A model generated the notes under the pieces. That model made no database searches. It was not told where the DNA came from and saw only the letters and a program-made list of their open reading frames with translations. This document shows, in pieces, positions 22,146 to 56,483 of a stretch of 64,000 nucleotides of DNA (positions are counted from its first letter, which is position 1; each line of letters starts with the position of its first letter). This stretch comes from Halomarina pelagica (GTDB taxonomy: Archaea > Halobacteriota > Halobacteria > Halobacteriales > Haloarculaceae). The DNA is taken from positions 1 through 64,000 of the forward strand of contig NZ_CP100458.1 in NCBI RefSeq assembly GCF_024228315.1, read 5' to 3'. Position numbers and translations under genes: made by a program.

Positions 22146-22147
22146 CC

Positions 22148-27100: not shown

Positions 27101-28503
27101 GTGAGGCAGGCATCGATGGAGGGGTACCGGACTACGAGACACTCGCCGACGTCCGCGAGCACTCGCAGTTGCTGACGGTGGATATCGACGCTGAGTCGAA
27201 CACGTTGGTCGTTCGGTTGACTGAGGCGGGTGAGGAGGCCGTGACACCGGAGCTAGGTGATGTCCAAGCCGCCGGTGGGCAAGCCCATGACGATGGGATT
27301 CTCGAGATTGAGGAGGCACTCACGACGGCTGGGTTCACCGTCGAACTCATCACACAGGATGGGAGTGAGCAGCCCGATGCACGAGCGACTCACCCCGAGC
27401 TCGATAACGAGTTCGCCATCGAGGTCGAGACGACCACACCAGAGAACCCGATCAAGGTACTCACCAACCTGAAAAAAGCACAGGACGAGGACTCGATTCC
27501 GTTGTTTGTTGTTCGCCCTGGTGAGACGGAGACGTATTGGGCTGAACGCATTGAGGGAATCCTCCATCCCCCAGTCAAACAGCTCTCGAACGGGGAAACA
27601 CAGCTCTACACATACGACGAACCGCTCCACGTTCGGCGGGTCTCGACAGGTGAACGATTCCCTGCCGTTCGCCCCGTTACTGGTGAAGGCGACTCTCGAC
27701 GGACGATCTGGCGACGAGGAGAGGAGGATATCATCCTCGTCGATAGTGCAGGCATCGAGCAGGGACGAATCCTCGGAGAGGCATCGGCCACCGAACACAA
27801 CGTGCCGGGAGTCTACACGTACGATGCAGAGGCCAACAAGTACGTCGTCACTGCCGATGGCACCCGACATACATACGACTCGAAAGCTGCCTTCGACGCC
27901 GAGTGGGTCACGATTAAGAAGCCGTTCATCCCCGAGAACGAACTCCCAGTGCCGGACTATGGGCGTGATACCTACCGCATCGTGATTCTTGCTTCCGACG
28001 GGGAAGCCGTGGTCTATGATTCGGCAGAGTCCACATCTCCCTTATCGACTCTCCTCATGGACTCTCCACTCCTCGCGACGTCTCGTGATGATCAGACTGA
28101 AGGCACGCCAGACCAGGCTGATTCAATTGAACGAGACGGCGCTGAGAGTATCGCAAGTGGCGATTCCAGTGAGAATACCTCCCCGAAGGTTGCCGACAGA
28201 CCTACTGAAGGGGATTCTCCTCTTCAATTCGATCCTGAAGACCCCGAGGAGCTGCTGTCGGCCTTCGTCACTAGATACCTCCGTGAAGATCCTGATGCTG
28301 TCACACCGAAAGACCGGATCTACAAAGCGTTCACCATCTGGTCGATCCAGCATGGCGGGGACGTCCCTGAGAAGAGTTCGTTCTCGAAGCGCCTACGCGA
28401 ACATGTCGATTGTGGTGACAAACGTGTCAGCAATAATGGGGAACGGACGTACTGTTACACCGACATTGAACTCTCTGAGTCTGGGTGTGAACTCCTCGAA
28501 TGA
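24106..28503 (+). CDS. Giant TraD/VirD4-like coupling ATPase with C-terminal extra domains
   Basis: A 1465-residue protein. Residues 1-450 are unassigned. The ATPase core has Walker A APPGHGKT (496-503), a VIILDSKGGG strand at about 520, and Walker B NVLIDEAASV (D780-E781), with a TQFPEQI sensor. This is the FtsK/TraD/VirD4 family that brings DNA to the secretion channel. No N-terminal membrane anchor is visible, so it may be soluble. After the motor, a segment at about 1065-1110 (FAIEVETTT) looks like a restriction-endonuclease-type fold. The last 90 residues (DRIYKAFTIWSIQHGG, then FSKRLREHV) resemble the winged helix of P4/D5-type primase-helicases. The fusion to replication-type domains is atypical. 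Confidence 0.75.
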   Translation: MSEPRDYLRVRPSSQPLHVGDIAHALASLHKLTVESQPSGLARFLPGTSSYPPRFEFLAVSEGTDAPVEFYYGTDGDLDALEDRLRSIYPTTFDIDRTELDLATKLIPPVAYSCEEFIDRLADGQLHFEPTEDDLRPVESERAVLEDGGTQTTSDATGSSHATMEYGDGVLRVDRVRSVDDPMVLTQPTLTDDGQILARPSVEEVVPMGVRWHGVAERKLDWMTTITPFTDHVDTAVISDDTETRVPLAAVIDTLVEADSPMAFQVVFQRKPDWSAEAWQREHDIKHGLDTLYGKARDFFDPVTPDEPNLSGQDEARLECVQAKKPKRTFTVNVRAVACPRDETAETQLDSRLDALATALDTLDGRFYGFEGHRLQASGFRQTASEQYARAALERLLDRELVTGRGKTRFDLVLNAEELANLITVPSGETLSRVGARGTRAKQQSRTPPPEPPAERLQQFDSGITLGPALGSNGQPHSKPVQLPPSLQKRHILRCAPPGHGKTIGLTNDALSAYDDTSGPVIILDSKGGGFATNYMRAHAARFGFDDFQENVLYFPVHEVLPGLAFFDIAPTLEYDDFDRVTASQHKADHYEEVLKLAMGTEKYERASVAPTLIKHLVKTMYDAEHGLENGRYRESVDAFSHAQLRHVVHQVWQAGPPNRNPDRVPQSSDPEARQTFDHLLNRDAQTFSTIMGGLDTRMEYITEDVRLRRLFDNTTSNFDFRDRIHEQQVIIFDLGRLRDDPATVLTGALLTSLYDAVRESHRDDSAGKPDNYVINVLIDEAASVVATDTISELLSRGREFDVSLELATQFPEQILESGDRETYLNTLRNTGTKLIGNIHVDDELAGALAHEDMDRVDFRNRVNSLANDEWLVDVPSPQFSAPDPNPFYVQAPPVPAGHPASDAPLSDAEDARFQESLEVVRSRTRDVYGVEDGNASPADAVPEELRNRLGAADGDLDEALAHVIRALQLREGVREENDWVPVEAVDTELQRVFADVAGEAGIDGGVPDYETLADVREHSQLLTVDIDAESNTLVVRLTEAGEEAVTPELGDVQAAGGQAHDDGILEIEEALTTAGFTVELITQDGSEQPDARATHPELDNEFAIEVETTTPENPIKVLTNLKKAQDEDSIPLFVVRPGETETYWAERIEGILHPPVKQLSNGETQLYTYDEPLHVRRVSTGERFPAVRPVTGEGDSRRTIWRRGEEDIILVDSAGIEQGRILGEASATEHNVPGVYTYDAEANKYVVTADGTRHTYDSKAAFDAEWVTIKKPFIPENELPVPDYGRDTYRIVILASDGEAVVYDSAESTSPLSTLLMDSPLLATSRDDQTEGTPDQADSIERDGAESIASGDSSENTSPKVADRPTEGDSPLQFDPEDPEELLSAFVTRYLREDPDAVTPKDRIYKAFTIWSIQHGGDVPEKSSFSKRLREHVDCGDKRVSNNGERTYCYTDIELSESGCELLE

Positions 28504-44211: not shown

Positions 44212-44231
44212 GTTTATTGCCCCTGAAGGGG
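44212..44231 (+). promoter_or_regulatory. T-box plus hairpin leader of the TFB gene
   Basis: GTTTATTG at 44212 is followed immediately by CCCCTGAAGGGG (44220-44231), a 4-bp-arm hairpin. Same layout as upstream of the small genes at 45-55 kb. Confidence 0.5.
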
Positions 44232-44266
44232 TGCGGGGTGCAGACAAGACATCTCGCAAACTACCG

Positions 44267-45202
44267 ATGGCGACGAGACATATCTACGAAACTGGCTTCG
44301 ACGAAGACGCATCGACCGGCAACACACCGTGTCCTGAATGCGGCGGCCAAGTAAGAACGAACAGGGTCGAGACGGTTTGTGAGGATTGTGGCCTCGTTAT
44401 TGACGAACAGACCATCGACTATGGGCCGGAATGGCGGTCGTTCGAAGACGACGAAGAAACTCCGAATCGATCAGGTGCACCACTCACCGTCGCACGTCAT
44501 GACCGAGGGCTGTCAACCGAGATCGGTCGCAGGAAAGATGCGAACGGGAACAAGCTCTCTGGGCAAAAACGCCAGCGGCTATCCCGAATGCGGCGTGAGC
44601 AGATTCTTGGTCGGTTCCAGTCGAAAGCTGAGCGAAACCTCGCACACGGCCTAGGTGAAGTTCGAAGAATCGCGAGCGTCCTCGAGCTCACAGATTCGGT
44701 TCGTGATCAAGCGTGTCAACTGTTCCGGAGCGCTCAAACCGAAGACCTGCTCCGAGGTCGATCAATCGAGGCGATAGCTGCAGCAAGCATCTACGGAGCC
44801 ACTCGTTGTAACGGCCTCCCACGAACACTCGACGACATCGTCGACGCGGCACAGGTCAAGCAGTCAAGAGTCAAGAGTGCCTACAAAACGCTAAATACCG
44901 ATCTTGGCCTCCCGACCCAGCCTGTTCGTCCGAGCGAATTCATTCCCCGCCTTGCGTCTGAACTCGATGTTCCGGACTCCATTCGACAGCGAGCTCGAAG
45001 GTTGGCCGAACAAGCTGAATCAACGAGTGCGACAACGGGTGTCCGGCCAGCAGGCTTTGCAGCGGCCTGTCTCTACACAGCTGGACGTGAAGATGGTCGG
45101 TGGCTGACGCAGTCGGAAGTTGCAGAAGCTGCGAACGTCACTCCACCAACCATCCGGTCGCATCAAGATGCACTGGCTGAACTGGTCCTCTGTGGCCTCT
45201 GA
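44267..45202 (+). CDS. tfb: Transcription initiation factor IIB (TFB)
   Basis: 311 residues from ATG 44267. The zinc ribbon has CPECG and CEDCG (C22, C25, C38, C41), followed by the B-reader region (DYGPEWRSFEDDE), and two cyclin folds (about 110-200 and 205-300), ending in a helix-turn-helix (TQSEVAEAANVTPPTIRSHQ). TFB recruits RNA polymerase to TATA/BRE promoters. Haloarchaea carry several TFBs, and a plasmid copy may direct polymerase to element-specific promoters. Two decayed relatives are in this window (about 3.9-4.3 kb and 41.1-41.3 kb). Its leader has the T-box and hairpin layout shared with genes downstream, so self-regulation is possible. Confidence 0.9.
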   Translation: MATRHIYETGFDEDASTGNTPCPECGGQVRTNRVETVCEDCGLVIDEQTIDYGPEWRSFEDDEETPNRSGAPLTVARHDRGLSTEIGRRKDANGNKLSGQKRQRLSRMRREQILGRFQSKAERNLAHGLGEVRRIASVLELTDSVRDQACQLFRSAQTEDLLRGRSIEAIAAASIYGATRCNGLPRTLDDIVDAAQVKQSRVKSAYKTLNTDLGLPTQPVRPSEFIPRLASELDVPDSIRQRARRLAEQAESTSATTGVRPAGFAAACLYTAGREDGRWLTQSEVAEAANVTPPTIRSHQDALAELVLCGL

Positions 45203-45240
45203 CTCGGAACGTTCAGTCTGTACTGGGCGTGGGGCTGATG

Positions 45241-45280
45241 TTTAAAAGCGAAGACGAGGGAACGTGCTGGTAGACGTCCC
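45241..45280 (+). promoter_or_regulatory. TATA-like element and imperfect hairpin upstream of zinc-finger gene
   Basis: TTTAAAAG at 45241 is followed by GGGAACGT...ACGTCCC (45258-45280), a hairpin with one bulge that ends just before ATG 45282. Confidence 0.4.
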
Positions 45281-45281
45281 C

Positions 45282-46166
45282 ATGACTGATCGTTACGCTG
45301 ATTTCGAGGAACTCCGACCGCGTGGCGAGGCGACACAGATTCCCGACGGTGAACTCACCAGAGACGGTCGTCGCGAGTCATCCAGAGGCCGACCCGGGGA
45401 GCTACTCGTGGGCTATCCAGATGACGCAGGCCCAACAGCGAGCGAGTGTGCTTCCTGTAGCGCGTCAATTCCTACCAGCCAGACCAAGTGCCGGTTCTGC
45501 CTCACGAATCATCTCGGAGCGTACACCGATGAACAGCAGCCCGCAGACACCGAGTGGACACTGCTTCACGTCGTCCAGCTGCTCGTCGAGGCCTCGACCG
45601 TCTATCACGCCGTCGCGAAGGGCGCTGCGGCAGCCACCCTCCTCGCGAAGCCCGACAGGGATCCAGCTGTCGACGACTGCCAGCTGATCTACGATTTCGA
45701 CGACGAGCCTACTGTGCTGCTGACCGACGAGTGGCCCTTCCTTCCAGATGCCGTACGGGCTACCTCTGAGCGTGGTGACCGATTGCTTGCGGCAGCTCGT
45801 GAACGGACGAACTGGACCGAGCTGACCGAGGTGCCACGTGGAGAAGCGCACACGACGTTTCTGTACGACGAGGGGGGACAAGGCATTCGCGATAAGGATC
45901 GGCTTACAGGCCTCCTTGAGTGCGCCGAGAACGGCGTCTGGTTGGTGCCAGCGATTGCACTCCAGCGTTCCGTCGACGACGTGCAGTCCGAGAATCGTCA
46001 ACCTAGCGTTCCCTCGAAAACGCGGCTTGACTGTCGCAGCTGCGACCGAACGACTGTGCATCAGTTCCAGGAGTTCGAGTCTGTCCCCGCTGCAAACTGG
46101 ACTGGACAGCCGATGTGGGAGTGTCAGGTGTGTCAGTTACCTCGTCACGGGCCAGACCCCTGCTAA
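45282..46166 (+). CDS. Zinc-finger protein of haloarchaeal plasmids, unknown function
   Basis: 294 residues from ATG 45282 (GTG at 45264 also possible). An early four-cysteine cluster, CASC and CRFC (C56, C59, C70, C73), is followed by a 150-residue alpha/beta domain, and a second zinc site near the C-terminus (LDCRSCDRTTVHQF then WECQVC). Two zinc ribbons at either end of one protein suggest nucleic-acid or protein binding. I do not recognise a characterised family. It is the second gene of the plasmid housekeeping block, directly after TFB, and shares the promoter-hairpin layout. Confidence 0.6.
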   Translation: MTDRYADFEELRPRGEATQIPDGELTRDGRRESSRGRPGELLVGYPDDAGPTASECASCSASIPTSQTKCRFCLTNHLGAYTDEQQPADTEWTLLHVVQLLVEASTVYHAVAKGAAAATLLAKPDRDPAVDDCQLIYDFDDEPTVLLTDEWPFLPDAVRATSERGDRLLAAARERTNWTELTEVPRGEAHTTFLYDEGGQGIRDKDRLTGLLECAENGVWLVPAIALQRSVDDVQSENRQPSVPSKTRLDCRSCDRTTVHQFQEFESVPAANWTGQPMWECQVCQLPRHGPDPC

Positions 46167-46731
46167 GATACTCGGCAGAACAACACCTTAACCAATAGAG
46201 AATGTAAACGCCCGAAGTTGTTGGTTAAGACCGTAGCAGGACCTGGCGAGTGACATTAACGGATTCACTCATTTTTCTGGGATAGGAGTGGGCAGGGCTA
46301 TACATTGTGGGGCCACGAGACACATGGAGACCGACTACATCGCGCTCGCAGCAACCTCGATATTGATAGAGTACTAGGCGGCGGTACCTCGGCGTCCAGT
46401 CCTTCCACACCACGTCGACAGAGGAACCGGAAGCCACGGACACGGGGAACTCACCAGAGACTTCGGCTAAACGTTTCTGCTGACGATCACCAGCCTGGTG
46501 ATGATCCTCGCATTCGACCCCCTGGTGGCTCACACTGAGCGGCGGCGAGAGTCTGCTGGCGTTCTGGGGAATGGTGTGACCGCAACCAACCGGTTTCGAC
46601 TCGAACGGGTCACAATTCGTCGTCCACGTTACTTGCGGTGTCATTTCATCGATTCATATTTGGTCAACACTGGAATTATCACTGGTCGAATAGGTTATAT
46701 ATCAACAAGCACGTAGTGTTTCTGATTATAT
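46167..46731. promoter_or_regulatory. Intergenic region with promoter of the membrane-protein gene
   Basis: No intact gene. Around 46440-46520 one frame reads TFLLTITSLVMILAF, which could be a broken membrane-protein gene, but evidence is weak. The right end is AT-rich and carries TTATATATC (46692-46700), a TATA box placed for a start at about 46722, ten bases before ATG 46732. Confidence 0.4.
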
Positions 46732-47679
46732 ATGTTACCACTGGTACCGGTAGCCGCCATCGCAGCCACAGCCCTCGGCGCAGGGGCTGTCGGCCACCAC
46801 GTTTCAAAACGTCGCAATGCCTCCGATTCCCAGACCGGTCAGGAGGGCGAGTCCGAGGTCGAGTTCAAGATTGACTCCAACATCGCCTACTTCTTCGACG
46901 ACGATCTATACGTCCCGAATGACGTGCTCGAAGACGCCGCCGAGGAACTCGGTGTCGATCCCAAGCTCGTCAAGAACGGAAAGCGAGCTGCTGTCAGTGT
47001 GCCCGTCGCGAAACAACTCGCATCGATGGTCGCTGACGTCGGCACAGATAATCACGTGCAGGCGGGCGTCGCCGAACGAATTCACGCGAAAGAACTCGCT
47101 CGGATGCTCGGAGGCGAAGCGGTCTTCGATAGTTCCAGCGTTTACGCTCCAGACGAAGGGGTCGACGCCGTGATCAAGACCGCGGACGCCGAGTTCAAAC
47201 TTCAGGTCAAACATCTCGCCGAGCAGGTGGGTGACGCGACGGCCAAGGAGTACGCTGACATCGTCGATTACCTCGCATCGACCAACGGATTCAAGGAGAG
47301 TGTTGATCCCGCGGCTCACGGGCTTCAGGGTTTCTCGAAGGCAGACTGGTCGTGGCGAGGACGAACCGAACTTCGTGGCCACCAGTTCATCAACGGGCTT
47401 CGAGAACTCTACGCCACAGCCCTCAGCGGGTTGGGCTGGCTAAATCGGCACGCAAGAACCTTCGCAAGGGCGGCTCGCCGCTTCCTGAGCTCCATGATGA
47501 AATCTGTCGTAGGTAAGGCCACCGCGGCTACCTCGTGGTTCCTCGCTCTCTCTCTCGGCCAGCAACTCGCCATCATTGCCGCTCTCATCGCCCTCGTCGC
47601 CGCTGGTTACTTCGTCTATAAGTGGTATCAGAATCGGAACCCTCACACATCGGCTGGGTCTGGGACCCCAAGCGTCTAA
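46732..47679 (+). CDS. Bitopic membrane protein, unknown function
   Basis: A 315-residue protein. A short hydrophobic N-terminus (LPLVPVAAIAATALGAGAVG) is followed by a soluble acidic domain of about 180 residues, a basic amphipathic stretch (HARTFARAARRFLSSMM) and a strong membrane helix at about 275-298 (LAIIAALIALVAAGYFVY), with a short polar tail. It could anchor a soluble domain to the membrane. No catalytic motif or known family is recognised. It stands alone between two intergenic gaps; its strong TATA box suggests independent transcription. Confidence 0.6.
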   Translation: MLPLVPVAAIAATALGAGAVGHHVSKRRNASDSQTGQEGESEVEFKIDSNIAYFFDDDLYVPNDVLEDAAEELGVDPKLVKNGKRAAVSVPVAKQLASMVADVGTDNHVQAGVAERIHAKELARMLGGEAVFDSSSVYAPDEGVDAVIKTADAEFKLQVKHLAEQVGDATAKEYADIVDYLASTNGFKESVDPAAHGLQGFSKADWSWRGRTELRGHQFINGLRELYATALSGLGWLNRHARTFARAARRFLSSMMKSVVGKATAATSWFLALSLGQQLAIIAALIALVAAGYFVYKWYQNRNPHTSAGSGTPSV

Positions 47680-48026
47680 CTCTCCAGCCCGCCAGAATTC
47701 GCGACCCAGCTTTTTCGATCGTCACGTGAGAACTTATCCTGAAACCGCAGCTCCCAATCGAAGTGAAACTAGGACGAAACTGCCACCCCCACCATCCCCA
47801 CCCACTTCGGAGGTGAAAGGTGCTACCCACCGGAAAACCACCGACCACGTCCGCCTTCAGCAAGCACTTCACGACTCTCATATAGCCCGATGACTCCGTG
47901 GAAATCGCCGCAATCACGCCAAGGACGAGGCCGTGCTGGAAGCTCCCTCAGTGGCCAAACTATATCACAGTCAAAACGTCCAGACAATTTCAACAGATCC
48001 AAACAGCTCTGCTTCGAGGCGCTGCT
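47680..48026. other. Intergenic region, nothing recognised
   Basis: Apart from short unconvincing reading frames I see no gene or repeat between the membrane-protein stop and the T-box before the gene at 48074. Confidence 0.4.
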
Positions 48027-48058
48027 GTTTTTCGAGGGCTGGAAGAACTGAGCCCTCG
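48027..48058 (+). promoter_or_regulatory. GTTTTTC box and CGAGGGCT/AGCCCTCG hairpin
   Basis: GTTTTTC at 48027, then perfect 8-bp inverted arms at 48033-48040 and 48051-48058. ATG 48074 follows 15 bases later. Confidence 0.6.
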
Positions 48059-48073
48059 TGGGCTCATGATTCC

Positions 48074-48496
48074 ATGACTGAGGAACTAGCCGACGATCCG
48101 TTCCACGACTGCGAGTTAGACCCCGACGCGGTTCTTGGGACACAGACCTTCGAAGACGTCCTGTTCACCGACGACACAGAGACGCCAGTGAACGTGCTGA
48201 CTGGCGAGACACCAGCGCATTCGCAAGCGACCGTCGAGGAGGCGAAGGCGTTCGCAGCAGACATCGACACCGACACGCCACAGATCGCGCTCCCTACCTC
48301 GGTCGAGACACAGATCGAAACCCAAAGCAAGCCCTACACCACAGCCGCGTTCTTCCACTTCAAGGCCACTGGCTCGCTCACGCTCCATCGAGCCTACCAC
48401 GCCGCCTCCGAATCGGACGCGTTTACCGTCGACTTCGAGGCCGACTACGATTCGGGGGATTTGACGATCACCGTCGAGCAAGTGGAGAACTCCTGA
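48074..48496 (+). CDS. Small acidic haloarchaeal protein, unknown function
   Basis: 140 residues from ATG 48074. The first 75 residues are acidic and low in structure. The C-terminal 60 residues are beta-rich (KPYTTAAFFHFKATGSLTLH, then FTVDFEADYDSGDLTITVEQ), like a small barrel or sandwich. There are no cysteines, charges suited to catalysis or membrane segments. It belongs to a row of short plus-strand genes, each with its own T-box and hairpin leader. Function unknown. Confidence 0.55.
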   Translation: MTEELADDPFHDCELDPDAVLGTQTFEDVLFTDDTETPVNVLTGETPAHSQATVEEAKAFAADIDTDTPQIALPTSVETQIETQSKPYTTAAFFHFKATGSLTLHRAYHAASESDAFTVDFEADYDSGDLTITVEQVENS

Positions 48497-48515
48497 AATA
48501 GGGAGTATCGAGTTC

Positions 48516-48546
48516 GTTTTTGTGCGCCGGCGATGGGTGACGGCGC
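48516..48546 (+). promoter_or_regulatory. GTTTTTG box and GCGCCG/CGGCGC hairpin
   Basis: GTTTTTG at 48516 and 6-bp arms at 48524-48529 and 48541-48546. The preferred ATG (48599) is farther away than in sister genes; an upstream in-frame ATG at 48533 lies inside the hairpin. Confidence 0.5.
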
Positions 48547-48598
48547 AGGCCGGAGCGCGAGAGAACGCCCGGAACGCCGGTGCAGCGAGGTATTTGAG

Positions 48599-49090
48599 AT
48601 GCACATGCTTATTTACGCACTGGTAGAAGCATCGACACATGACAACGCGTTGGCCATCGGAAAGACGGTGTTTGACCGTCTGGTCGGCGCGGACCCGCAT
48701 TCCTCCACCGTGTTCGATTACTACGTCTGCTTCGACGAGGAGAACACGAAGGTCGCGGGTAAGGCGCGGTGGGGTGACCTCCCGACCGCAGCCCCCATCG
48801 GCACCGACAACGGACAGGACTTACTCGACCAAGGATGGGAAGCGACGAAAGAAGAATTCGAGCGCAATCTCGAACGGGTGAAGGAATCCATCGGCGAACT
48901 CTCCGACGAGGAGATCATGCGCGATGAGAATCTCGCTCGGCACGCGTTCCACCAGGTCGGCGCGTACGACGGTCCATCGGTGTTCCTGTATACCCAGCAT
49001 GCGAGCGGCATCCGGCATCGCGAGCAACTGGATCGACTCCTCGAAGAGAGTGAGGACCTCTGGATCGTCCCCGCCGACGTCCATTTCTAA
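48599..49090 (+). CDS. Conserved-looking haloarchaeal plasmid protein, unknown function
   Basis: 163 residues from ATG 48599 (MHMLIYALVEAS). ATG 48533 would add 22 Arg-rich residues that look like translated leader. The fold seems alpha/beta: a ferredoxin-like start (HMLIYALVEASTHDNALAIG), a central charged helix (GWEATKEEFERNLERVKESI) and a terminal strand (DLWIVPADVHF). No catalytic motif is evident. It lies 3 bp upstream of the zinc-finger gene at 49094, so the two are probably co-transcribed. Confidence 0.6.
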   Translation: MHMLIYALVEASTHDNALAIGKTVFDRLVGADPHSSTVFDYYVCFDEENTKVAGKARWGDLPTAAPIGTDNGQDLLDQGWEATKEEFERNLERVKESIGELSDEEIMRDENLARHAFHQVGAYDGPSVFLYTQHASGIRHREQLDRLLEESEDLWIVPADVHF

Positions 49091-49093
49091 CCG

Positions 49094-49459
49094 ATGCCCC
49101 GACTCACCAACTGGACGCGAGAACGTCGTACACCGTCGCTCGCGTATCGAAACACCGAGACTGAAGCCCGAGCCGTTCTCCATCGCGCCCCGGACTCATA
49201 CCGGTACAAGTGGCGTGGCGCAATCCTCGTCGACGGCTACCCGGTCTGGTCGCGAGGGTATGAGACGAAGGACGCGACTGCGTTTCGGAACGCGCTCCGT
49301 GACAGACCAGCGCCCGAATTGAGTTGTCCGGAGTGTCTAAACGGCGATGTGGTCGTCGGAGGGAAAACGGCTGACCGCGCGAAAGTTCAGCGCTGGTTCG
49401 AGTGTCGGAACTGTGGGTACGAAGCACCCTCAGAGATCGTATACGGCGCCGAACGCTAA
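49094..49459 (+). CDS. Small zinc-ribbon protein
   Basis: A 121-residue protein. The N-terminal 75 residues are basic relative to the neighbours (RYKWRGAILVDGYPVWSRG). The C-terminal zinc ribbon has CPEC and CRNC (two CxxC pairs separated by about 25 residues). It resembles small haloarchaeal zinc-ribbon proteins found on plasmids, possibly nucleic-acid binding. It begins 3 bp after the preceding stop. Confidence 0.6.
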   Translation: MPRLTNWTRERRTPSLAYRNTETEARAVLHRAPDSYRYKWRGAILVDGYPVWSRGYETKDATAFRNALRDRPAPELSCPECLNGDVVVGGKTADRAKVQRWFECRNCGYEAPSEIVYGAER

Positions 49460-49483
49460 TCGGTCGAGAACGCGTTGGGAGCT

Positions 49484-49527
49484 GTTTATCGTCCGGGCAG
49501 GAGAGGATGCCCCGGTTTGACCGGGGC
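49484..49527 (+). promoter_or_regulatory. GTTTATC box and GCCCCGG/CCGGGGC hairpin
   Basis: GTTTATC at 49484. Perfect 7-bp arms at 49509-49515 and 49521-49527 with a TTTGA loop; ATG 49537 follows nine bases later. Confidence 0.6.
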
Positions 49528-49536
49528 GGTTCAACG

Positions 49537-49932
49537 ATGAGCCTCGAAGTATTCAACCGTCACAGTGAGGCACTGTTCGAGTTCCTCTGGTGTCCGGTCT
49601 GCGGGCACGAGGTGTTCAGTCATATCCCCTTCGAGGGCGTGTTCTGTAAGAACTGCAACACACAGGTGGAACTCCAAGAATCACATGAGGATCGTGGCTA
49701 CGAGGAAGCCGTCCTCGCCTGCTTCGATACCGCCACGACCTGGAACCTCCACGTCGACGAAAAACTTCGTCGCGACCTGCCTGACGAGTCGGCGAGGATG
49801 AAGATCCTCGGCGCACCGGACGCCTACGAGGTCGACTGGTGGAGTCCCGAACCCGGCAACGACTGGGAGCCGGTCGAGCGCGGTGAATTCGCTGACATCG
49901 AAGAACCTGCCGACGTGTCTCACTTGGCGTAA
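49537..49932 (+). CDS. Small zinc-finger protein (DUF7567-like)
   Basis: 131 residues from ATG 49537. An N-terminal zinc ribbon reads CPVCG then CKNC (about residues 18-42). The rest is acidic and includes AYEVDWWSPEPGNDWEP. It is similar, from memory, to haloarchaeal plasmid proteins catalogued as DUF7567. No enzymatic motif. It may bind nucleic acid or a protein partner. It has its own box-and-hairpin leader, so it is probably monocistronic. Confidence 0.6.
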   Translation: MSLEVFNRHSEALFEFLWCPVCGHEVFSHIPFEGVFCKNCNTQVELQESHEDRGYEEAVLACFDTATTWNLHVDEKLRRDLPDESARMKILGAPDAYEVDWWSPEPGNDWEPVERGEFADIEEPADVSHLA

Positions 49933-49952
49933 GGAGAGGCGTTCGTTGGGGA

Positions 49953-49983
49953 GTTTTTCCACCCCCTGAAGGGTGCGGGGGTG
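49953..49983 (+). promoter_or_regulatory. GTTTTTC box and CACCCCC/GGGGGTG hairpin
   Basis: GTTTTTC at 49953 and perfect 7-bp arms at 49960-49966 and 49977-49983, upstream of ATG 50011. Confidence 0.6.
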
Positions 49984-50010
49984 CTCGAACGAGCCCCCTC
50001 GAACAGAACT

Positions 50011-50415
50011 ATGAGTGGAATCAGTGATCCACACTCGCACGAACAGTCATGGGCTTCGGATGATTCCGACGTCGTCTACGTCGGTTACCGTCGTCGTGGC
50101 CGGGCCATCGTCGAGATACACCCCGATCAAGAACAGCTCACGCCGGATAGGAGTCTTGAACTAGCGAGTCACAGTCATTCGGGCTTCGAGTGGGGATATG
50201 GTGGCAGCGGGCCGGCCCAACTCGCACTCGCCCTTCTGCTCGATTACACCGACGACGAGGAGGTGGCACTCGCGGAGTACATGTCCTTCAAGACCGAGGT
50301 CGTGAGCCAGCTGGAGTGTACAGCACCCGACGGCTGCTGGCGACTCACCGGGCGCGAGATCGACGCAGCTCTTCGCAAGACATCGGATGATCCAGTCGCA
50401 CCGTCCGTCAACTAA
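50011..50415 (+). CDS. DUF6166-family protein
   Basis: 134 residues from ATG 50011. It carries VVYVGYRRRG, then the distinctive SHSHSGFEWGYGGSGPAQLA and a helix leading to FKTEVVSQL, which I recognise as the DUF6166 pattern. The family occurs on bacterial and archaeal mobile elements; its biochemical role is not known to me. The Gly-rich GYGGSGP loop may bind a ligand. It has its own box-and-hairpin leader and ends 17 bp before a small gene likely translated from the same mRNA. Confidence 0.75.
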   Translation: MSGISDPHSHEQSWASDDSDVVYVGYRRRGRAIVEIHPDQEQLTPDRSLELASHSHSGFEWGYGGSGPAQLALALLLDYTDDEEVALAEYMSFKTEVVSQLECTAPDGCWRLTGREIDAALRKTSDDPVAPSVN

Positions 50416-50432
50416 CGACCAGAGAACAATCC

Positions 50433-50711
50433 ATGTCAGAACACACGCAGCAGTCTCGTACGGACGCCGAATCGATGGAGAATAGTGATCGACAACCGCC
50501 AGTAGAGTACGTCGAGCGGAGCGACGTCGGTGTCTCGCTCACCGTGAAGCTCAAGCGGGGAACTGGGACGAGGGATGAGGACCAGATCACGGCCAAGGTG
50601 AAAGCGAAAACGCTCGAAGATGCCCGTGAGGACATGGAGACGCTTCGAGCATACATCCACAATCTCGCCGAGGATACTCGCCAGATTCAACCTGAGGAAG
50701 ACGGCGGGTAG
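50433..50711 (+). CDS. Small acidic protein (DUF7389-like)
   Basis: A 92-residue protein. After an acidic disordered start comes VSLTVKLKRGTGTRDEDQI, then a helix (KAKTLEDAREDMETLRAYIH). The beta-hairpin plus helix is like a small nucleic-acid- or protein-binding unit, and similar proteins are frequent on haloarchaeal plasmids. It has no hairpin leader of its own and starts 17 bp after the DUF6166 stop, so it is probably co-transcribed. Confidence 0.55.
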   Translation: MSEHTQQSRTDAESMENSDRQPPVEYVERSDVGVSLTVKLKRGTGTRDEDQITAKVKAKTLEDAREDMETLRAYIHNLAEDTRQIQPEEDGG

Positions 50712-50723
50712 CGACACGGTGCG

Positions 50724-50754
50724 GTTTATCGACGCCTCATGAGGGACTGAGGCG
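50724..50754 (+). promoter_or_regulatory. GTTTATC box and CGCCTCA/TGAGGCG hairpin
   Basis: GTTTATC at 50724 and perfect 7-bp arms at 50733-50739 and 50748-50754; ATG 50762 follows seven bases later. Confidence 0.6.
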
Positions 50755-50761
50755 ACAACCA

Positions 50762-50983
50762 ATGAGTGATACTTCAGAGCAGTCCACCGACGCAAGCGGT
50801 CTCTCACCGAAACAACGCCTCGAGCCACCGAATACCCGGTTACTCGACGCCGGCATCGCGACGATCCACGATATGAATACGCTGCGAGCGTGCGTTGCTT
50901 ACGAGAACGCCCACCAGCAGCGCATACTGATCCTCCGCCGACTCGAACAACGGGCGGAAGAGATCCGTTCACAGGACGACTGA
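50762..50983 (+). CDS. Very small protein, unknown function
   Basis: 73 residues. It has a polar N-terminus and two helices at the C-terminus (TIHDMNTLRACVAYENAHQQ and ILRRLEQRAEEI). The leader with box and hairpin supports expression, although the size makes the call less sure. No family recognised. Confidence 0.5.
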   Translation: MSDTSEQSTDASGLSPKQRLEPPNTRLLDAGIATIHDMNTLRACVAYENAHQQRILILRRLEQRAEEIRSQDD

Positions 50984-51000
50984 ATCGACGCTTGTGGGCA

Positions 51001-51032
51001 GTTTTTCGAGCCACTAGTGGATGGAGGCTCGA
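51001..51032 (+). promoter_or_regulatory. GTTTTTC box and TCGAGCC/GGCTCGA hairpin
   Basis: GTTTTTC at 51001 overlaps the left arm (51006-51012); right arm at 51026-51032. ATG 51038 follows five bases later. Confidence 0.6.
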
Positions 51033-51037
51033 TCCAG

Positions 51038-51337
51038 ATGAGCGACCGACCAACAATCCAGATTCAGCGACAGACCGCGTTCGGTGACGATGGCCAACTC
51101 GAAGTTACAGAGACGAGCGTCGAAACCTCACTCGAGGACTTCGGCGCAGAGGTGGATCACCGCGACCGAGACTCGCGACTCGACCAGCCAGAAGCGAGTA
51201 AGTTCGGCGTCGACGACCGGCCAGAAGTAGAACGATCGTCTGAGAGCGACCAGTCATCTCTCTTCGCCACGACTGACGAAGACCAGCAGACCTTGACTGG
51301 CGATAAAGCGGTCGCTCGTTGTCTATTTGAGGATTAA
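51038..51337 (+). CDS. Small acidic protein, unknown function
   Basis: 99 residues from ATG 51038, highly acidic and probably disordered. It opens with a short beta segment (TIQIQRQTAFGDDGQLEVTE) and ends with a hydrophobic DKAVARCLFED. No family recognised. Its stop codon lies within the left arm of the long inverted repeat that follows. The T-box and hairpin leader is the main reason to accept it as a gene. Confidence 0.5.
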   Translation: MSDRPTIQIQRQTAFGDDGQLEVTETSVETSLEDFGAEVDHRDRDSRLDQPEASKFGVDDRPEVERSSESDQSSLFATTDEDQQTLTGDKAVARCLFED

Positions 51338-51486
51338 CCAACACGCGTTGGTCTTTTCGCCGGTAATGCGACACCGAGACTGCTACTGAAGCGGCTGTCA
51401 CCTGCCTCCAGTAGCTTTTGAACCGGCCGTCGCGTTGTAGCCTGAAAAGACCAACGATGGATCCACTCGGTTCCGTTGGTTAATTC
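51332..51486. repeat. Nested inverted-repeat element (terminator-like or MITE-like)
   Basis: Outer arms ATTAACCAAC (51333-51342) and GTTGGTTAAT (51475-51484), inner arms GTTGGTCTTTTC (51347-51358) and GAAAAGACCAAC (51444-51455, perfect 12 bp), then GCCGGT/ACCGGC (51359 and 51422) and a central GCTACTG/CAGTAGC hairpin (51382 and 51409). The arms also form local hairpins (ACCAAC/GTTGGT at 51337-51352). It lies between converging genes, so it could be a bidirectional terminator. The nested layout also resembles a small transposable element. The remaining bases to 51592 show nothing else. Confidence 0.65.
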
Positions 51487-51592
51487 ATAGATGACGTTAT
51501 CTCACCGATACCCACTGTAGACTCGCAGGACAACCAATCTCGACGAGCGTTCAAGATCAAAGCCCCGTCTTAGGAACGAGATCAGCGTTCTA

Positions 51593-52189
51593 TCACCCTG
51601 TGAGTTCCCAAGCAATGGCTGCACCTTGTTGATGTACTGGATGGCGCAGCCCCGTGAACTCAGCGATAGTCTGGGTTTTGAGTGTCAAATTGTACCAGTA
51701 CTCAACATCTCTCACAACCTTCTCGGCCAGCTTCGTGGCATCCATCAGCGGAAACGCTCCATCAGCTGGTTCGTAGTAGAGCCCAAGCAGCCCACCCTCT
51801 GTTTCGAATTCGCTATCGGCGAGTTTCTTTGCGTCGGCGACAAGCGAGTTCGAGAATGGACTGTAGACCGTAGTATAGGCCGCCGGTTCAATATCACCGT
51901 TGTCGCGGTAGAATCGAAGCAGCTTCGCTTCAACCGGGATCTGAGACCCCTCGCTCTCGAGGAGGATGTCACATCGCTGCTCGCTATTTGGGTACGGGAC
52001 TTCAGTCTCCGTGACTTCGTAGCAGGTAGACTGTTGTCCAAGTCGTTCCACGAGTCGTCGTACTTGCTCTTCTTCGTCGAACGCACCGATACCAGGCTGC
52101 CACCGCTGGTGTTCGGCTGTAGCGTCGATCTGGGGGACGACATCGGAAACATCGCGTGCAAACTGGTCAAGAACTGCAGTCGTAATCAT
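51593..52189 (-). CDS. PD-(D/E)XK restriction-endonuclease-like protein
   Basis: A 198-residue protein. The core reads ETEVPYPNSEQRCDILLESE then SQIPVEAKLLRF, giving D74 and the pair E87/K89 of a PD-(D/E)XK nuclease. A conserved-looking YTTVYSPFSNSLVADAKKL follows. It is short, about the size of the catalytic domain alone. Its start overlaps the GIY-YIG gene stop by 4 bp (ATGA reading on the minus strand), so it is the second gene of a two-gene operon. It would cut DNA with its partner supplying a second nuclease or specificity. No methyltransferase is nearby. Confidence 0.7.
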   Translation of the reverse strand: MITTAVLDQFARDVSDVVPQIDATAEHQRWQPGIGAFDEEEQVRRLVERLGQQSTCYEVTETEVPYPNSEQRCDILLESEGSQIPVEAKLLRFYRDNGDIEPAAYTTVYSPFSNSLVADAKKLADSEFETEGGLLGLYYEPADGAFPLMDATKLAEKVVRDVEYWYNLTLKTQTIAEFTGLRHPVHQQGAAIAWELTG

Positions 52190-53571
52190 CGAATACCCTC
52201 GAACGAAAAGTCGGTGGTCTTAATCGGTGCGTCATCAGGGACGTCACTCTTGTTCAACAACCGATCAGGGAACGCAGCCTGCGCAACGCCGATCAGCTGT
52301 GGCTCGACCTCGGCAAGATACGCGTCGTAGCCGTACGGCCCCGTGTGCAGTTCCTGGTTCCATGCCTTCACCCAGAGGTACACCTGCTCTTTGAGGCGAT
52401 GCGTTCCCTGTTCAAACAGCTCGCTCGCCCACGGGACCTTCCGTGTATCATCCTCGAACAGGGCCATCGAGAGCTCACCAACGTGCCAGTAGTCCCCATC
52501 ACCCCACCGAGCAAAGCTCCTCGTACTCGACCGCTCAGTAGCAATTTCTGTGAAATTCGCACTCAACTCGTTCTTCTTGCCGTACGCTTCCGCCTTCCCA
52601 ACGTATCGCGGAATGACCGTCAGTCGATCACTTCTGTCGGCGTCGGCGAGCTGGTACATGAGATAGATCAATCCCTCGTATCCGTCGTCCCTCACCCCGC
52701 CCGAGTGGACGCATTTTCGTCCCTCGGTGCGGATTCGCTCATCGATGGCATCCGAGCGCTTGAGGCGACCAGAGTTGGTGAGCTTGACCTGCAGCCGGTC
52801 ATCCGTGTCGAATAGCGGAATTGGGTCAGCTGTCGATTCGTCAGCAACGTCCGGATAGACGTACCTCTCGAGCCAGTGAGCCCACAGATCGGCTTTCGAG
52901 TGGTGTTCCGTGGAGAGGTCGTACCGAGGAGGCGCGTCTGCCGTTTCTGGCCTTGTAGACTCGGTCGAGAGCCAAGTGTGGCCAGCGAGTCCGATTTCGT
53001 GTAGAACTCGGTTTGGGACGAACTCGCGATTGGTCATGGTCCGCCGATACTCTGGGTGTGCGTAGATGAGTCCAATTAGCTTGGCTTCCAGTTCCTGCCG
53101 GTAGGTCGCCACACCGTAGGGACACACATCAAGGGTTTCGACGTCCAGAATCCAGACGTATAGTTGTGAGTCAGCTGCCTCTCGAACCGCCGCGATGTGG
53201 TCGTATTTCGAGAAGCTCCCCCACGAGCCGTCGTCCTCCCAGTCGTCGATCGGGATGGCTTCATCGATTTTCTTGTAGTGCTGGTAAATTCGAGACCCGA
53301 TATTTCGGGATTCGCCGACATACACCGGGGTGATGTCTGCGGCGGTATTGATCGGCTCGTCTGCAAGGTAGATGAGATACAAGTATTCGCCATCGTTCTT
53401 CCCATACCGATAGCGGTCGAGTGCGTCGGTCGTGGTAAGTTCACCATCGACCGTCGTCAAGAACGGCACTGGATCTAACCGATCGGGTGCATGGATATCT
53501 TGGAGGAGAGTTCGTTCAATCCATGTGGCCCACAAATCAGCCTTCGAGGCGGTCATCTGATACATACTCAT
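52186..53571 (-). CDS. Tandem GIY-YIG-like nuclease
   Basis: A 461-residue protein made of two related halves. The first has EYLYLIYLA (about 62-70), TPVYVGESRNIGSRI (81-95, with R94 in the catalytic position) and QELEAKLIGLIYAHP (E161). The second has GLIYLMYQL (about 300-308), PRYVGKAE and AEVEPQLIGVAQAAFP. These are GIY, YIG and Glu motifs, with GIY degraded to LIY. The repeated ADLWA.W.ER N-termini show that the halves arose by duplication. It is coupled to a PD-(D/E)XK nuclease gene by a 4-bp overlap. A role in cutting foreign or modified DNA is inferred. Confidence 0.7.
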   Translation of the reverse strand: MSMYQMTASKADLWATWIERTLLQDIHAPDRLDPVPFLTTVDGELTTTDALDRYRYGKNDGEYLYLIYLADEPINTAADITPVYVGESRNIGSRIYQHYKKIDEAIPIDDWEDDGSWGSFSKYDHIAAVREAADSQLYVWILDVETLDVCPYGVATYRQELEAKLIGLIYAHPEYRRTMTNREFVPNRVLHEIGLAGHTWLSTESTRPETADAPPRYDLSTEHHSKADLWAHWLERYVYPDVADESTADPIPLFDTDDRLQVKLTNSGRLKRSDAIDERIRTEGRKCVHSGGVRDDGYEGLIYLMYQLADADRSDRLTVIPRYVGKAEAYGKKNELSANFTEIATERSSTRSFARWGDGDYWHVGELSMALFEDDTRKVPWASELFEQGTHRLKEQVYLWVKAWNQELHTGPYGYDAYLAEVEPQLIGVAQAAFPDRLLNKSDVPDDAPIKTTDFSFEGIR

Positions 53572-53699
53572 CGATTTCTTGACTTACCAGTTTCGTCACT
53601 CATTGGCAAGAGCAGCCGTGATATGCCACGGTCTTACACGCAGAGGGACGTTCTTGATGAGTAGGGCGTCCGCTGTCCGTCCGCGTTGGACAGTGAGCA

Positions 53700-53722
53700 A
53701 TTTTTCGCGCCCTGAGGGGGCG
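53700..53722 (+). promoter_or_regulatory. ATTTTTC box and CGCCC/GGGCG hairpin
   Basis: ATTTTTC at 53700, 5-bp arms at 53708-53712 and 53718-53722, upstream of ATG 53758. A Shine-Dalgarno-like AGGAGGG occurs at 53747-53753. Confidence 0.55.
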
Positions 53723-53757
53723 AGGGCTCGATATAGGTCTTCACATAGGAGGGTTCC

Positions 53758-54105
53758 ATGAATCAACAACAGAATTCGAGAGATATCTCGATCGATGAGA
53801 TTCCAGTCGATATCGCAAGCACACAATCCGCCGAGGTAGACCCAGCTGACGTCCCCGAGGAGATTCAATCGATCACTTGTGGGCTCGCGAGTGAACAGCC
53901 ACCGACGAACCCATTGATCGTCCTGAAAGCCGCGCGGTGGTGGTACCTCCATGGAGAAGGTGGAACCGATCCCGTCTTTCGATGGGCACTCGACTGGGCG
54001 TTGAACCTCGCGACCGACACGCCGAGTGACGTCGAACGATTCGAGGAGTTCCTCGAATACCTCGTTGCGGTCGGCTTCGCTAACGAAAAAGAAACCCTCC
54101 GATAG
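53758..54105 (+). CDS. Small helical protein, unknown function
   Basis: 115 residues from ATG 53758. An acidic N-terminal 40 residues is followed by helices around PLIVLKAARWWYLHGEGG and VFRWALDWALNLATDTP. Tryptophan-rich amphipathic helices suggest a compact helical fold. No family recognised. Its strong SD and box-and-hairpin leader support it as a gene. It precedes the ArdC-like gene by 85 bp with a separate leader. Confidence 0.55.
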   Translation: MNQQQNSRDISIDEIPVDIASTQSAEVDPADVPEEIQSITCGLASEQPPTNPLIVLKAARWWYLHGEGGTDPVFRWALDWALNLATDTPSDVERFEEFLEYLVAVGFANEKETLR

Positions 54106-54117
54106 CGACCGCGAGTC

Positions 54118-54145
54118 GTTTTTCTGCCCCCGAAGGGTGCGGGGC
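54118..54145 (+). promoter_or_regulatory. GTTTTTC box and GCCCC/GGGGC hairpin
   Basis: GTTTTTC at 54118, 5-bp arms at 54126-54130 and 54141-54145, upstream of ATG 54191. Confidence 0.55.
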
Positions 54146-54190
54146 GTCCTGAACTGACACCAGTGGCGTCAACCGAATTTGGTGACCAAC

Positions 54191-55117
54191 ATGGCTACAA
54201 GCAGTGACTCATCGGTCTCCTTCGACCAGACCGACACGCGATACGACGAGATGCACAGCACGATTGAACGGTGGGTCGACGACCTCGTCGAGCGTGTCGA
54301 CGACGCACAGACGAGCGCGGAGTTCCAGGAATGGCTCGACTTCCAGAGTCGCTTCCACGACTACTCCTACCGGAATACGCTGCTCATCAAACAGCAGTGT
54401 CCCGAGGCGACGCGGGTTGCTGGGTATCGGACGTGGCAGGACGAGTTCGACCGGCACGTCCAGGAAGGCGAGCAGGCCATTTGGATCTGGGCACCGATCA
54501 TCGCGAAACAGTGCCCCGAATGCGAGAATTCGCCGGGCTATCACGAGCGGAGCGACTGTGAGTACGACGAGACGCCACCTGAGGGATGGTCAAAAGGGCT
54601 CGTTGGGTTCAAGCCCGCGCCAGTGTTCGACATCTCCCAGACGGATGGCGAGCCGCTTCCCGATCTCGACACGGCCGCCACCGGCGATGCCGGTGACCTC
54701 GTCTCACGACTTACCAGCGTCGGTGATGACGTTGGTGTGACCGTCCGAATCGTCCCAGACGAAGAGTGGTCACACGGCAGCGCGAATGGTGTCTGTGAGC
54801 GGGTGAGCCTCATGGACGTCCAGCCACTCGTCGAAGTTCGCGATCGGTCGAATCAAGCGGACCTCGCACGGACGTTGGTCCACGAGTACGCTCACGCATT
54901 GCTCCACGCCACTCTCGACGATACTACTGAGCGGTCGAAGCGCGAAGTCGAAGCAGAGGCCGTTGCGTACATCGTCGGCCGATATTGTGGTCTCGACACC
55001 AGTGGCTCAGCGTTCTATCTCGCGGCATGGGAATCCGACGATCCAGAGGTAATTCGCGACCGGCTGGGTCGTATCAGCCGAACAGCAGAGGAACTCATCG
55101 AGGTGCTCGTGGACTGA
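54191..55117 (+). CDS. ArdC-like antirestriction protein (ssDNA-binding domain plus zinc metallopeptidase)
   Basis: 308 residues from ATG 54191. The N-terminal domain (about 25-150) includes FHDYSYRNTLLI and GYRTWQDEF, the pattern of the ArdC/DUF1738 ssDNA-binding domain, with an inserted four-cysteine zinc knuckle (CPEC...C). The C-terminal domain has the metallopeptidase motif HEYAHALLH (H231, E232, H235) and EAEAVAYIVGRY, as in ImmA/IrrE-type proteases. ArdC proteins protect incoming plasmid DNA from restriction during conjugation. This fits an element that carries both a T4SS and several restriction systems. Which substrate is cleaved is unknown. Confidence 0.8.
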   Translation: MATSSDSSVSFDQTDTRYDEMHSTIERWVDDLVERVDDAQTSAEFQEWLDFQSRFHDYSYRNTLLIKQQCPEATRVAGYRTWQDEFDRHVQEGEQAIWIWAPIIAKQCPECENSPGYHERSDCEYDETPPEGWSKGLVGFKPAPVFDISQTDGEPLPDLDTAATGDAGDLVSRLTSVGDDVGVTVRIVPDEEWSHGSANGVCERVSLMDVQPLVEVRDRSNQADLARTLVHEYAHALLHATLDDTTERSKREVEAEAVAYIVGRYCGLDTSGSAFYLAAWESDDPEVIRDRLGRISRTAEELIEVLVD

Positions 55118-55184
55118 CCTGACGCCAACCCCCTCCCCCAGATTCCAATCGTACACCTGAACAGACCTCCCGTGATGGATACGG

Positions 55185-55217
55185 TCGATTTTCTCGCGCC
55201 CATGATGGGCGGAGGCG
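55185..55217 (+). promoter_or_regulatory. GATTTTC box and nested CGCGCC/GGCGCG hairpin
   Basis: GATTTTC at 55185. CGCGCC at 55193-55198 pairs with GGCGCG at 55212-55217, and alternatively CGCCCA/TGGGCG (55195-55209) forms a triloop hairpin. ATG 55242 follows. Confidence 0.55.
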
Positions 55218-55241
55218 CGCACGTCGCTCTTCCATCGAACA

Positions 55242-55772
55242 ATGACCGACCACTATCTTCCCATAGTTCTCGAGGAGGCGCATCAGCTAGCTAACCATCA
55301 ACCAGAGCTGGCCCAATCAACCGAGCAGCCAGCGCACGAGTATCTGCGGTATGCGGTCCTGCAACTGCTAGAAGCCGATGCCGACGACACGTACACGGAC
55401 GTCGACCCCGTTCACGATGTGACAGTTGGCTACGGAATGGATCAAGCGATGTTCGACCACTGGGCGTCTGAGGTCGACTGGTGGGAGAGTATTCCGCCAC
55501 AGGAGAACTGCACGCGATTTCGGATTTTCTACTCCAACGAGCAGGACGCAGTTCCTCGAACAGTCGTTGATGTGATGGCAGCACTAGGTGCATGGCACGT
55601 CTGGACCGGAGAAGCCTCAGAACACGGCTCATACGACCACTGTGATCGACACGAAGTCCACTACCTCTGGCCGAAGCATCATCCAATCGAGGAATTGCTG
55701 ACTTCTCGACTTCAAAGCACGCAGTCAATCGTTGAATCGTCGGGCGTTCACAGCAGGAACAGTACCCGGTAG
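55242..55772 (+). CDS. Haloarchaeal plasmid protein, unknown function
   Basis: A 176-residue acidic protein. It contains VTVGYGMDQAMFDHWASEVDWW and several tryptophans and histidines (GSYDHCDRHEVHYLWPKHHP). The His/Cys-rich segment could bind metal, but the order does not match a known finger. No family is recognised. It is the last gene of the box-and-hairpin block before the BREX operon. A gap of 108 bp follows, holding the BREX promoter. Confidence 0.55.
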   Translation: MTDHYLPIVLEEAHQLANHQPELAQSTEQPAHEYLRYAVLQLLEADADDTYTDVDPVHDVTVGYGMDQAMFDHWASEVDWWESIPPQENCTRFRIFYSNEQDAVPRTVVDVMAALGAWHVWTGEASEHGSYDHCDRHEVHYLWPKHHPIEELLTSRLQSTQSIVESSGVHSRNSTR

Positions 55773-55880: not shown

Positions 55881-56483
55881 ATGACTACTGATCTCAAGAA
55901 CGCATTGACGGCCACTCAAGAGAATCTCGGAGAGATTGGCGTCGAGGACGCGTTAGTCCGCGAAGTTCTATCTTATCGGCTGTTAATTGAGCGACTCGGC
56001 GAAAGTGACAATAACGACTGGTGGGAGTCAATGATCCTGACTGAATTAGGCCGAGACCGCCTTGATGAGGTGACCCCGAAAACAGCAGCAAAAGCAAGAA
56101 TCGATCTTGCACAGCGCGTCGGTCGAAAAGTCGAGCAAGACCGCACCGAGAAGAACACGATTTCTCTGTTCTACCTCGGGCCGACCGTAGAGGCACAAAT
56201 CAGTGCTGAATTAGAAGACATTTCAGAGAGTACTCAATTCGAGATGCTTGAGTCCCTCACCGAAACTACTGGCACGACTGATTGGACAGCTGATCTGGTA
56301 GACAATGTTGATCTCGAGTTCTCTGAGGAAGGCGAGGTGCTCCGTCTTGGCCCCGATACTCTCGAGGAGGCCCAATTGAAATCCAGGACAACGATGCGAC
56401 GTGTCGCGAGAGAATGCTTCGCGGGGTACGGGCAATCAGCCGAAGGATCACTGCAAGTGCCATATTATAAAGTAGAGCTATGA
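55881..56483 (+). CDS. brxE: BrxE-like protein of a BREX system
   Basis: 200 residues from ATG 55881. The segment LSYRLLIERLGESDNNDWWES followed by a DRLDEVTPKTAAKARIDLA helix recalls the BrxE pattern (LxxRLGE...WWxS, then a TP-rich helix). BrxE precedes brxA in type 6 BREX loci, as this gene does here. The similarity is recalled by eye and should be treated as likely, not proven. It overlaps brxA by 4 bp (ATGA). The promoter is leaderless with a palindromic operator candidate. Function of BrxE is unknown; it may be a regulatory or structural part of the BREX methylation/exclusion complex. Confidence 0.55.
   Translation: MTTDLKNALTATQENLGEIGVEDALVREVLSYRLLIERLGESDNNDWWESMILTELGRDRLDEVTPKTAAKARIDLAQRVGRKVEQDRTEKNTISLFYLGPTVEAQISAELEDISESTQFEMLESLTETTGTTDWTADLVDNVDLEFSEEGEVLRLGPDTLEEAQLKSRTTMRRVARECFAGYGQSAEGSLQVPYYKVEL

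Follow-up and report, generated by a model that had tools for sequence, protein, structure and literature searches.

A class-wide T-box and hairpin element at transcription-unit starts of a haloarchaeal plasmid gene block: a candidate promoter cassette of an establishment regulon

Background

In a 64,000-nt stretch of Halomarina pelagica DNA (the window, which belongs to contig C5 in a haloarchaeal assembly of 4.6 Mb), a T-rich box followed closely by an inverted repeat stands before one gene after another of a plus-strand block that includes genes for a plasmid TFB and an ArdC-like protein. The question raised by this locus is what the T-box and hairpin element does, and whether its hairpin acts as DNA or as RNA. 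The element is a control signal common to a gene set, and it looks like the archaeal counterpart of the switches by which bacterial plasmids express their first genes in a new cell. From its sequence we tentatively favour, at somewhat short of probable, the reading that the element serves an establishment regulon as its promoter cassette and is most likely a single-stranded DNA (ssDNA) promoter working like Frpo/ssi of bacterial plasmids. No description of the element in archaea and no archaeal precedent was found in the literature searched, which lacked most subscription papers.

Element detection and anatomy

The whole window was scanned mechanically on both strands for a T-box followed by a perfect stem of 5–9 bp and a loop of 8–14 nt. 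This yielded twelve plus-strand matches, ten of which were sites named in an earlier note on this DNA (Table 1), and six scattered minus-strand matches. At the ten sites, all on the plus strand, the distance from the first T of the T-box to the start codon was 36–82 nt. Of 13 upstream regions, 10 had the T-box and hairpin, whereas in 500 dinucleotide-preserving shuffles the number averaged 0.17 and never exceeded 2; the possibility that such hairpins are as frequent in shuffled sequence was thus not borne out. The earlier note had counted eleven genes with this leader, which holds for ten, the gene at 45282 having a TTTAAA box without a hairpin. Its observation that genes inside operons (49094 and 50433) lack the element was confirmed.

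Across 75 non-redundant copies the consensus was a G-rich segment, GTTT(T/A)TC, 0–3 nt, and a stem of 5–9 bp with variable arms (A and B) enclosing a loop of ~8–14 nt with the core GAnGGGTG, the whole ~35 nt long and in nearly all copies 1–57 nt before the start codon. The hairpins had been said all to differ; this is true of the arms, which change from gene to gene, and not of the loop, whose conservation (~GAnGGGTG in the window) had been overlooked. The T-box is mostly TTTTT or TTTAT, with the variants GTTGTTC, GTTGCTC and GTCTGTC also accepted, and lies outside the stem in every copy, so that it would be unpaired in the single-stranded form. In 151 non-redundant copies from 24 gene families, the T-box was 18.5 ± 1.5 nt from the loop centre and ~30 nt from the hairpin end.

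Position at transcription-unit starts

A covariance model built from nine copies and applied to 13 loci gave 173 matches with E-values of 5 or less, of which 157 were examined. This first model missed two of the ten window copies at E<=5 (49485 and 50725), and its counts are therefore lower bounds. Of the examined matches, 141 lay no more than 150 nt upstream of an annotated gene on the same strand, one lay inside a gene and 21 had a divergent neighbour. Over the 13 loci, no element was present between same-strand neighbours less than 40 nt apart (0/62), whereas 99 of the 165 intervals of 40–200 nt contained one. The elements mark the starts of transcription units.

Several known kinds of signal were rejected. 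The elements are not intrinsic terminators, because 141 of 157 precede same-strand genes and 21, having a divergent upstream neighbour, follow no gene end; the T-box variants, moreover, are not U-tracts. A sequence-specific operator was ruled out by the variable arms. Integron attC sites, with paired GTTRRRY/RYYYAAC cores, do not fit, as the T-box has no complement after the stem and the arms stay with the downstream gene family. Rfam covariance models matched no family at any element.

The haloarchaeal core promoter consists of a B recognition element (BRE; CGAAA) and a TATA box (TTWT) (PMC4983044). From -70 to -8 before the T-box, no conserved sequence and no A-rich or CGAAA signal of the haloarchaeal BRE was found in the 75 non-redundant copies, and TATA-like words were rarer upstream of the T-box than before control genes (6% vs 19%); therefore the published haloarchaeal promoter is absent there. 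In cases with a divergent neighbour, A/T runs were seen in 60%, with a TATA-like rate of 15%, and the runs are attributed to the divergent gene's own promoter. Because the element often begins 12–22 nt past the preceding stop codon, there is also no room for another promoter, and a conventional promoter upstream of the T-box was ruled out on the absent motif, the low TATA-like rate and this lack of room together. The T-box itself is the sole TATA-like word of the element; it resembles TTWT, and its distance of ~30 nt from the hairpin end matches the spacing of the archaeal core promoter (PMC4983044). The element differs from that promoter in lacking a BRE, in placing a hairpin between the TATA-like box and the presumed start, and in accepting T-box variants that are not TATA-like.

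Covariation analysis

In the set aligned to the covariance model, the stem covariation score was 0.541, compared with 0.135 when partners were shuffled and no more than 0.17 when they were slid; this alignment was itself fitted to the structure. Detection by sequence only, followed by a pairing test, agreed with it (56/92 vs 17). The arms covary, and the earlier proposal that structure is under selection gains support from both results.

Whether the selected structure is DNA or RNA was addressed with ortholog alignments of element-bearing gene families (133 loci), using a scoring that treats G.T and A.C alike. Families with a supported A:B stem had 43 G.T and 41 A.C pairs. A second helix, B:C, in which the 3' arm (B) pairs with a segment (C) that lies downstream, close to the start codon, was supported by column permutation in nine families, and in the supported families had 67 G.T and 14 A.C. 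The two helices differ in their tolerance of G.T (Fisher p=1.7e-5). By family, G.T exceeded A.C in B:C in eleven and fell below it in none, whereas A:B was split about evenly. For the ArdC family the column-based A:B result was poor, the alignment being ambiguous between arm, loop and 3' arm. Since RNA helices tolerate G.U, the pattern is that of RNA in B:C but not in A:B. These alignments are read most simply if transcription begins near the loop or B, so that the mRNA contains B but not A, and if selection maintains A:B as a hairpin in the DNA; judged by core-promoter spacing, the start could equally lie where B ends.

The same data bear on a structured RNA leader, in which the whole element would be transcribed and the 3' arm would switch between A:B and B:C to control translation or mRNA stability. 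The column-permutation support for B:C and its G-U covariation speak for this reading, A:loop together with B:C was chosen in the predicted folds of several window leaders, and Shine-Dalgarno-like GGTGA or GAGGTGA follows B:C in some. Two findings count against it: A:B has no G-U preference, and no promoter precedes the T-box, not even at copies with a divergent upstream neighbour. Segment C cannot fit in the shortest leaders, and structured leaders have been described as untypical of haloarchaea (PMC4983044). We consider a leader of this kind unlikely. The common RNA control suggested earlier thus survives in part: G-U is tolerated where the 3' arm pairs with the downstream leader, but the T-box hairpin itself shows no G-U preference.

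Distribution and conjugative setting

More than 140 haloarchaeal plasmids in PLSDB carry the gene block; of twelve plasmid regions fetched, most were typed MPF_T and all were listed as non-mobilizable. The covariance model matched 93 of 194 genomes of the class Halobacteria, through which the element is spread class-wide; a phylum-wide sample gave 14 positives, all in the window's own order, and none among genomes of other classes. The element was found in 84 of 113 genomes with ArdC compared with 9 of 81 others (p=3e-19), and in 79 of 114 with VirB4 compared with 14 of 80. It is carried by plasmids or integrated elements that also bear conjugation genes. Among culturable hosts, Halobacterium salinarum R1 has it on plasmid PHS1 and Haloarcula marismortui on pNG600. 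In the window, a conjugation module lies on the strand of the element block, and in the same genome two further ArdC copies on another contig (C1) have elements close by. A block holds up to 18 copies, in one orientation per locus except on one plasmid with two block copies. That plasmid, of Halobacterium sp. DL1 (L014), has its two element blocks in opposite orientation, which suggests two fused conjugative elements. A viral origin was rejected, as the IMG/VR contigs contained no ArdC relative and the phage collection gave no DNA match to 48500-51350.

A plasmid TFB orthologue was present in 63 of the 93 element-positive genomes, and 30 lacked a close one at E<=1e-100. In a special double-stranded core promoter, a plasmid TFB/TBP regulon would use the T-box (TTWT) as its TATA box. 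The inverted repeat, lying between this box and the start site, would be extruded as a cruciform or bound by a structure-specific protein that would keep the genes off in the resident plasmid. The ~30-nt spacing, the TFB gene within the set, the co-occurrence of TFB orthologues and the mostly TTTTT/TTTAT T-box would suit this arrangement. The 30 genomes without a close orthologue, the missing BRE and the tolerance of GTTGCTC and GTCTGTC count against it, and in an operator recognised by its sequence one would expect conserved arms rather than a conserved loop and pairing. Such a promoter is in our view quite unlikely, and of the dedicated TFB regulon proposed in the earlier note there remain the element before the TFB gene itself and the orthologue in two-thirds of positive genomes.

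The loops bring in a further alternative, that the elements are ssDNA initiation sites at which hairpins would expose a GTG-type loop to a primase starting complementary-strand synthesis. GTG is present in the loop of many copies, although many loops have GGGCG or lack GTG. Frpo reportedly also primes replication, going by the title of a 1997 paper by Masai and Arai. Primase genes occur on related plasmids, and the archaeal pRN1 primase needs GTG in its template (PMC8076596). Priming would not need the tight coupling to transcription-unit starts or as many as 18 copies in a block, and we regard this explanation as very improbable.

Proposed mode of action

For a hairpin whose loop is conserved and whose arms vary to form in DNA, the DNA has to be single-stranded or extruded, and conjugation delivers DNA in single-stranded form. 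In bacterial plasmids, Frpo/ssi drive leading genes from ssDNA (PMC9849209, PMC11541004), and ArdC is a typical establishment gene, controlled in pLS20 and p576 by upstream elements that it shares with other genes (PMC8708921). An ssDNA-promoter-like regulon is favoured because of this mode of delivery, the Frpo/ssi precedent and the presence of ArdC. Genes of the ArdC block on plasmids bearing a type IV secretion system (T4SS) are labelled leading by analogy.

In this reading, every transcription unit of an establishment (leading-region-type) block would have the T-box and hairpin as its start signal, the block being part of a conjugative element widespread in haloarchaea. The hairpin would act as a DNA structure, most likely forming in the single strand that enters the recipient by conjugation, and RNA polymerase would start near the 3' arm of the folded strand. 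Production of ArdC, plasmid TFB and other establishment products could then begin immediately, ahead of second-strand synthesis or while it is under way. When the DNA became double-stranded the hairpin would be lost and the establishment genes would fall silent. The mRNA would begin near the 3' arm, and the sequence of this arm would also fold with the part of the leader next to the start codon. We further consider it possible, though rather doubtful, that this is the first ssDNA-promoter regulon in Archaea, with up to 18 hairpin promoters active only on incoming ssDNA and expressing ArdC, plasmid TFB, DUF7567/DUF6166 and others at entry.

Several points weigh against an ssDNA promoter. An unpaired T-box in the single-stranded form would offer no duplex for TBP to bind, and Frpo carries its -35 and -10 boxes inside the duplex, whereas the element's T-box is outside the stem and its duplex holds no sigma boxes. 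In half of the window copies the predicted ssDNA hairpin is of no more than moderate stability, and the C-rich arms are able to pair with the G-rich loop as well. The G.T and A.C counts come from related sequences, with few informative cells in some families. In pLS20, the question of transferred strand and template was used to argue against ssDNA promoters for EGeRS1 (PMC8708921), and the same point applies here.

Comparison with known systems

Frpo/ssi of F and ColIb-P9 are, like the element, repeated noncoding hairpins on one strand of a conjugative element before leading genes that include anti-restriction genes, and the element's hairpin likewise appears to be kept as a DNA structure, its stem covarying and being neutral for G.T versus A.C. 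Frpo is longer; the element has ~35 nt, one copy per transcription unit, an archaeal RNA polymerase and a putative ssDNA activity. EGeRS1 of the pLS20 family resembles it in placing inverted-repeat regions with no recognisable promoter before ardC and other establishment operons (PMC8708921), but is 420–750 bp long and conserved in sequence (62–95%), unlike the short, structure-conserved archaeal element. The element may work like Frpo/ssi or EGeRS; it is not filed as a member of Frpo or EGeRS1, because it has neither the duplex promoter boxes of the one nor the length and sequence conservation of the other. EGeRS2 of p576 also defines an establishment regulon including ardC by a common upstream sequence, but this is a strong sigma-A promoter with Reg operators, and no such operator was seen at the archaeal elements. 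The lambda nut site, boxA followed by the boxB hairpin, similarly sets a single-stranded box before a hairpin with a purine-rich loop. The archaeal element departs from it in occurring once per transcription unit and in a stem without G-U tolerance, and we know of no N-like factor for it.

Features of the window

The gene at 45282-46166, a block member with an ordinary TTTAAA promoter, bears the NCBIfam family name 'biosurfactant protein 1' (MBSP1); its product is possibly a regulator that stays on in the resident plasmid. A minus-strand two-gene unit (51593-53571) without hairpin elements is inserted in the element block; comparable insertions on related plasmids are merA, P-type ATPase and restriction genes. 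Directly past the last element gene are the BREX genes brxA, brxB and brxC (56480-61448), a defence system that we regard as cargo beside the establishment block. A three-gene unit at 31701-37995 (DUF6361, PLD-domain and helicase proteins) weakly resembles DISARM/Dpd parts. Elsewhere, 1996-3693 encodes a protein with a TFIIB/Rrn7-type zinc ribbon, and 4086-4304 is a broken TFIIB repeat with an in-frame stop.

Table 1. Elements and associated features of the window
Feature	Coordinates	Strand	First T of T-box	T-box	5' arm / loop / 3' arm	Context
Element 1	44212..44239	+	44213	GTTTATT	GCCCC / TGAAGGGGTGC / GGGGT	27 nt before TFB gene 44267; 22.1 bits
Element 2	48027..48058	+	48028	GTTTTT	CGAGGGCT / GGAAGAACTG / AGCCCTCG	Before gene 48074; downstream GGGCTC (48060-48065) is an alternative pairing partner of the 3' arm
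Element 3	48516..48547	+	48517	GTTTTTG	TGCGCCG / GCGATGGGTGA / CGGCGCA	Before gene 48599; 38.9 bits; ssDNA fold z -3.4
Element 4	49484..49515	+	49485	GTTTATCGT	CCGGG / CAGGAGAGGATGC / CCCGG	Before DUF7567 gene 49537; alternative hairpin downstream, GCCCCGGTTTGACCGGGGC
Element 5	49953..49983	+	49954	GTTTTTC	CACCCCC / TGAAGGGTGC / GGGGGTG	Before DUF6166 gene 50011; 34.4 bits
Element 6	50724..50754	+	50725	GTTTATCGA	CGCCTCA / TGAGGGAC / TGAGGCG	7 nt before gene 50762
Element 7	51001..51032	+	51002	GTTTT	TCGAGCC / ACTAGTGGATGGA / GGCTCGA	5 nt before gene 51038; ssDNA fold z -3.5
Element 8	53701..53727	+	53701	TTTTTCGC	GCCCT / GAGGGGGCG / AGGGC	Before gene 53758; upstream neighbour on - strand
Element 9	54118..54146	+	54119	GTTTTTC	TGCCCC / CGAAGGGTGC / GGGGCG	Before ArdC-like gene 54191; 27.8 bits
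Element 10	55188..55219	+	55189	TTTTCT	CGCGCC / CATGATGGGCGGA / GGCGCG	Before gene 55242
TTTAAA-type promoter of gene 45282 (not an element)	45240..45281	+				No hairpin; orthologues keep the TTTAAA box; serves as contrast
Gene set under elements	44267..55772	+				TFB 44267, 48074, 48599 (with DUF7568 49094), DUF7567 49537
Gene set under elements, continued		+				DUF6166 50011 (with DUF7389 50433), 50762, 51038, 53758, ArdC-like 54191, 55242
Conjugation module	17616..28503	+				TrbL/VirB6-like, VirB4-like and TraG/VirD4-like proteins; strand of element block

Conclusions

In haloarchaea, T4SS genes are common but a relaxase is seldom recognised (PMC3158045). With a signal that marks establishment-type genes throughout the class, it should become easier to find the entering strand and the oriT of archaeal conjugative elements, and their set of anti-defence genes. 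The element also marks the DUF7567, DUF6166, DUF6610 and DUF6735-neighbour families, whose function is unassigned, as candidate establishment or anti-defence genes, and whether archaeal RNA polymerase can use folded ssDNA as a promoter becomes a directly testable question.

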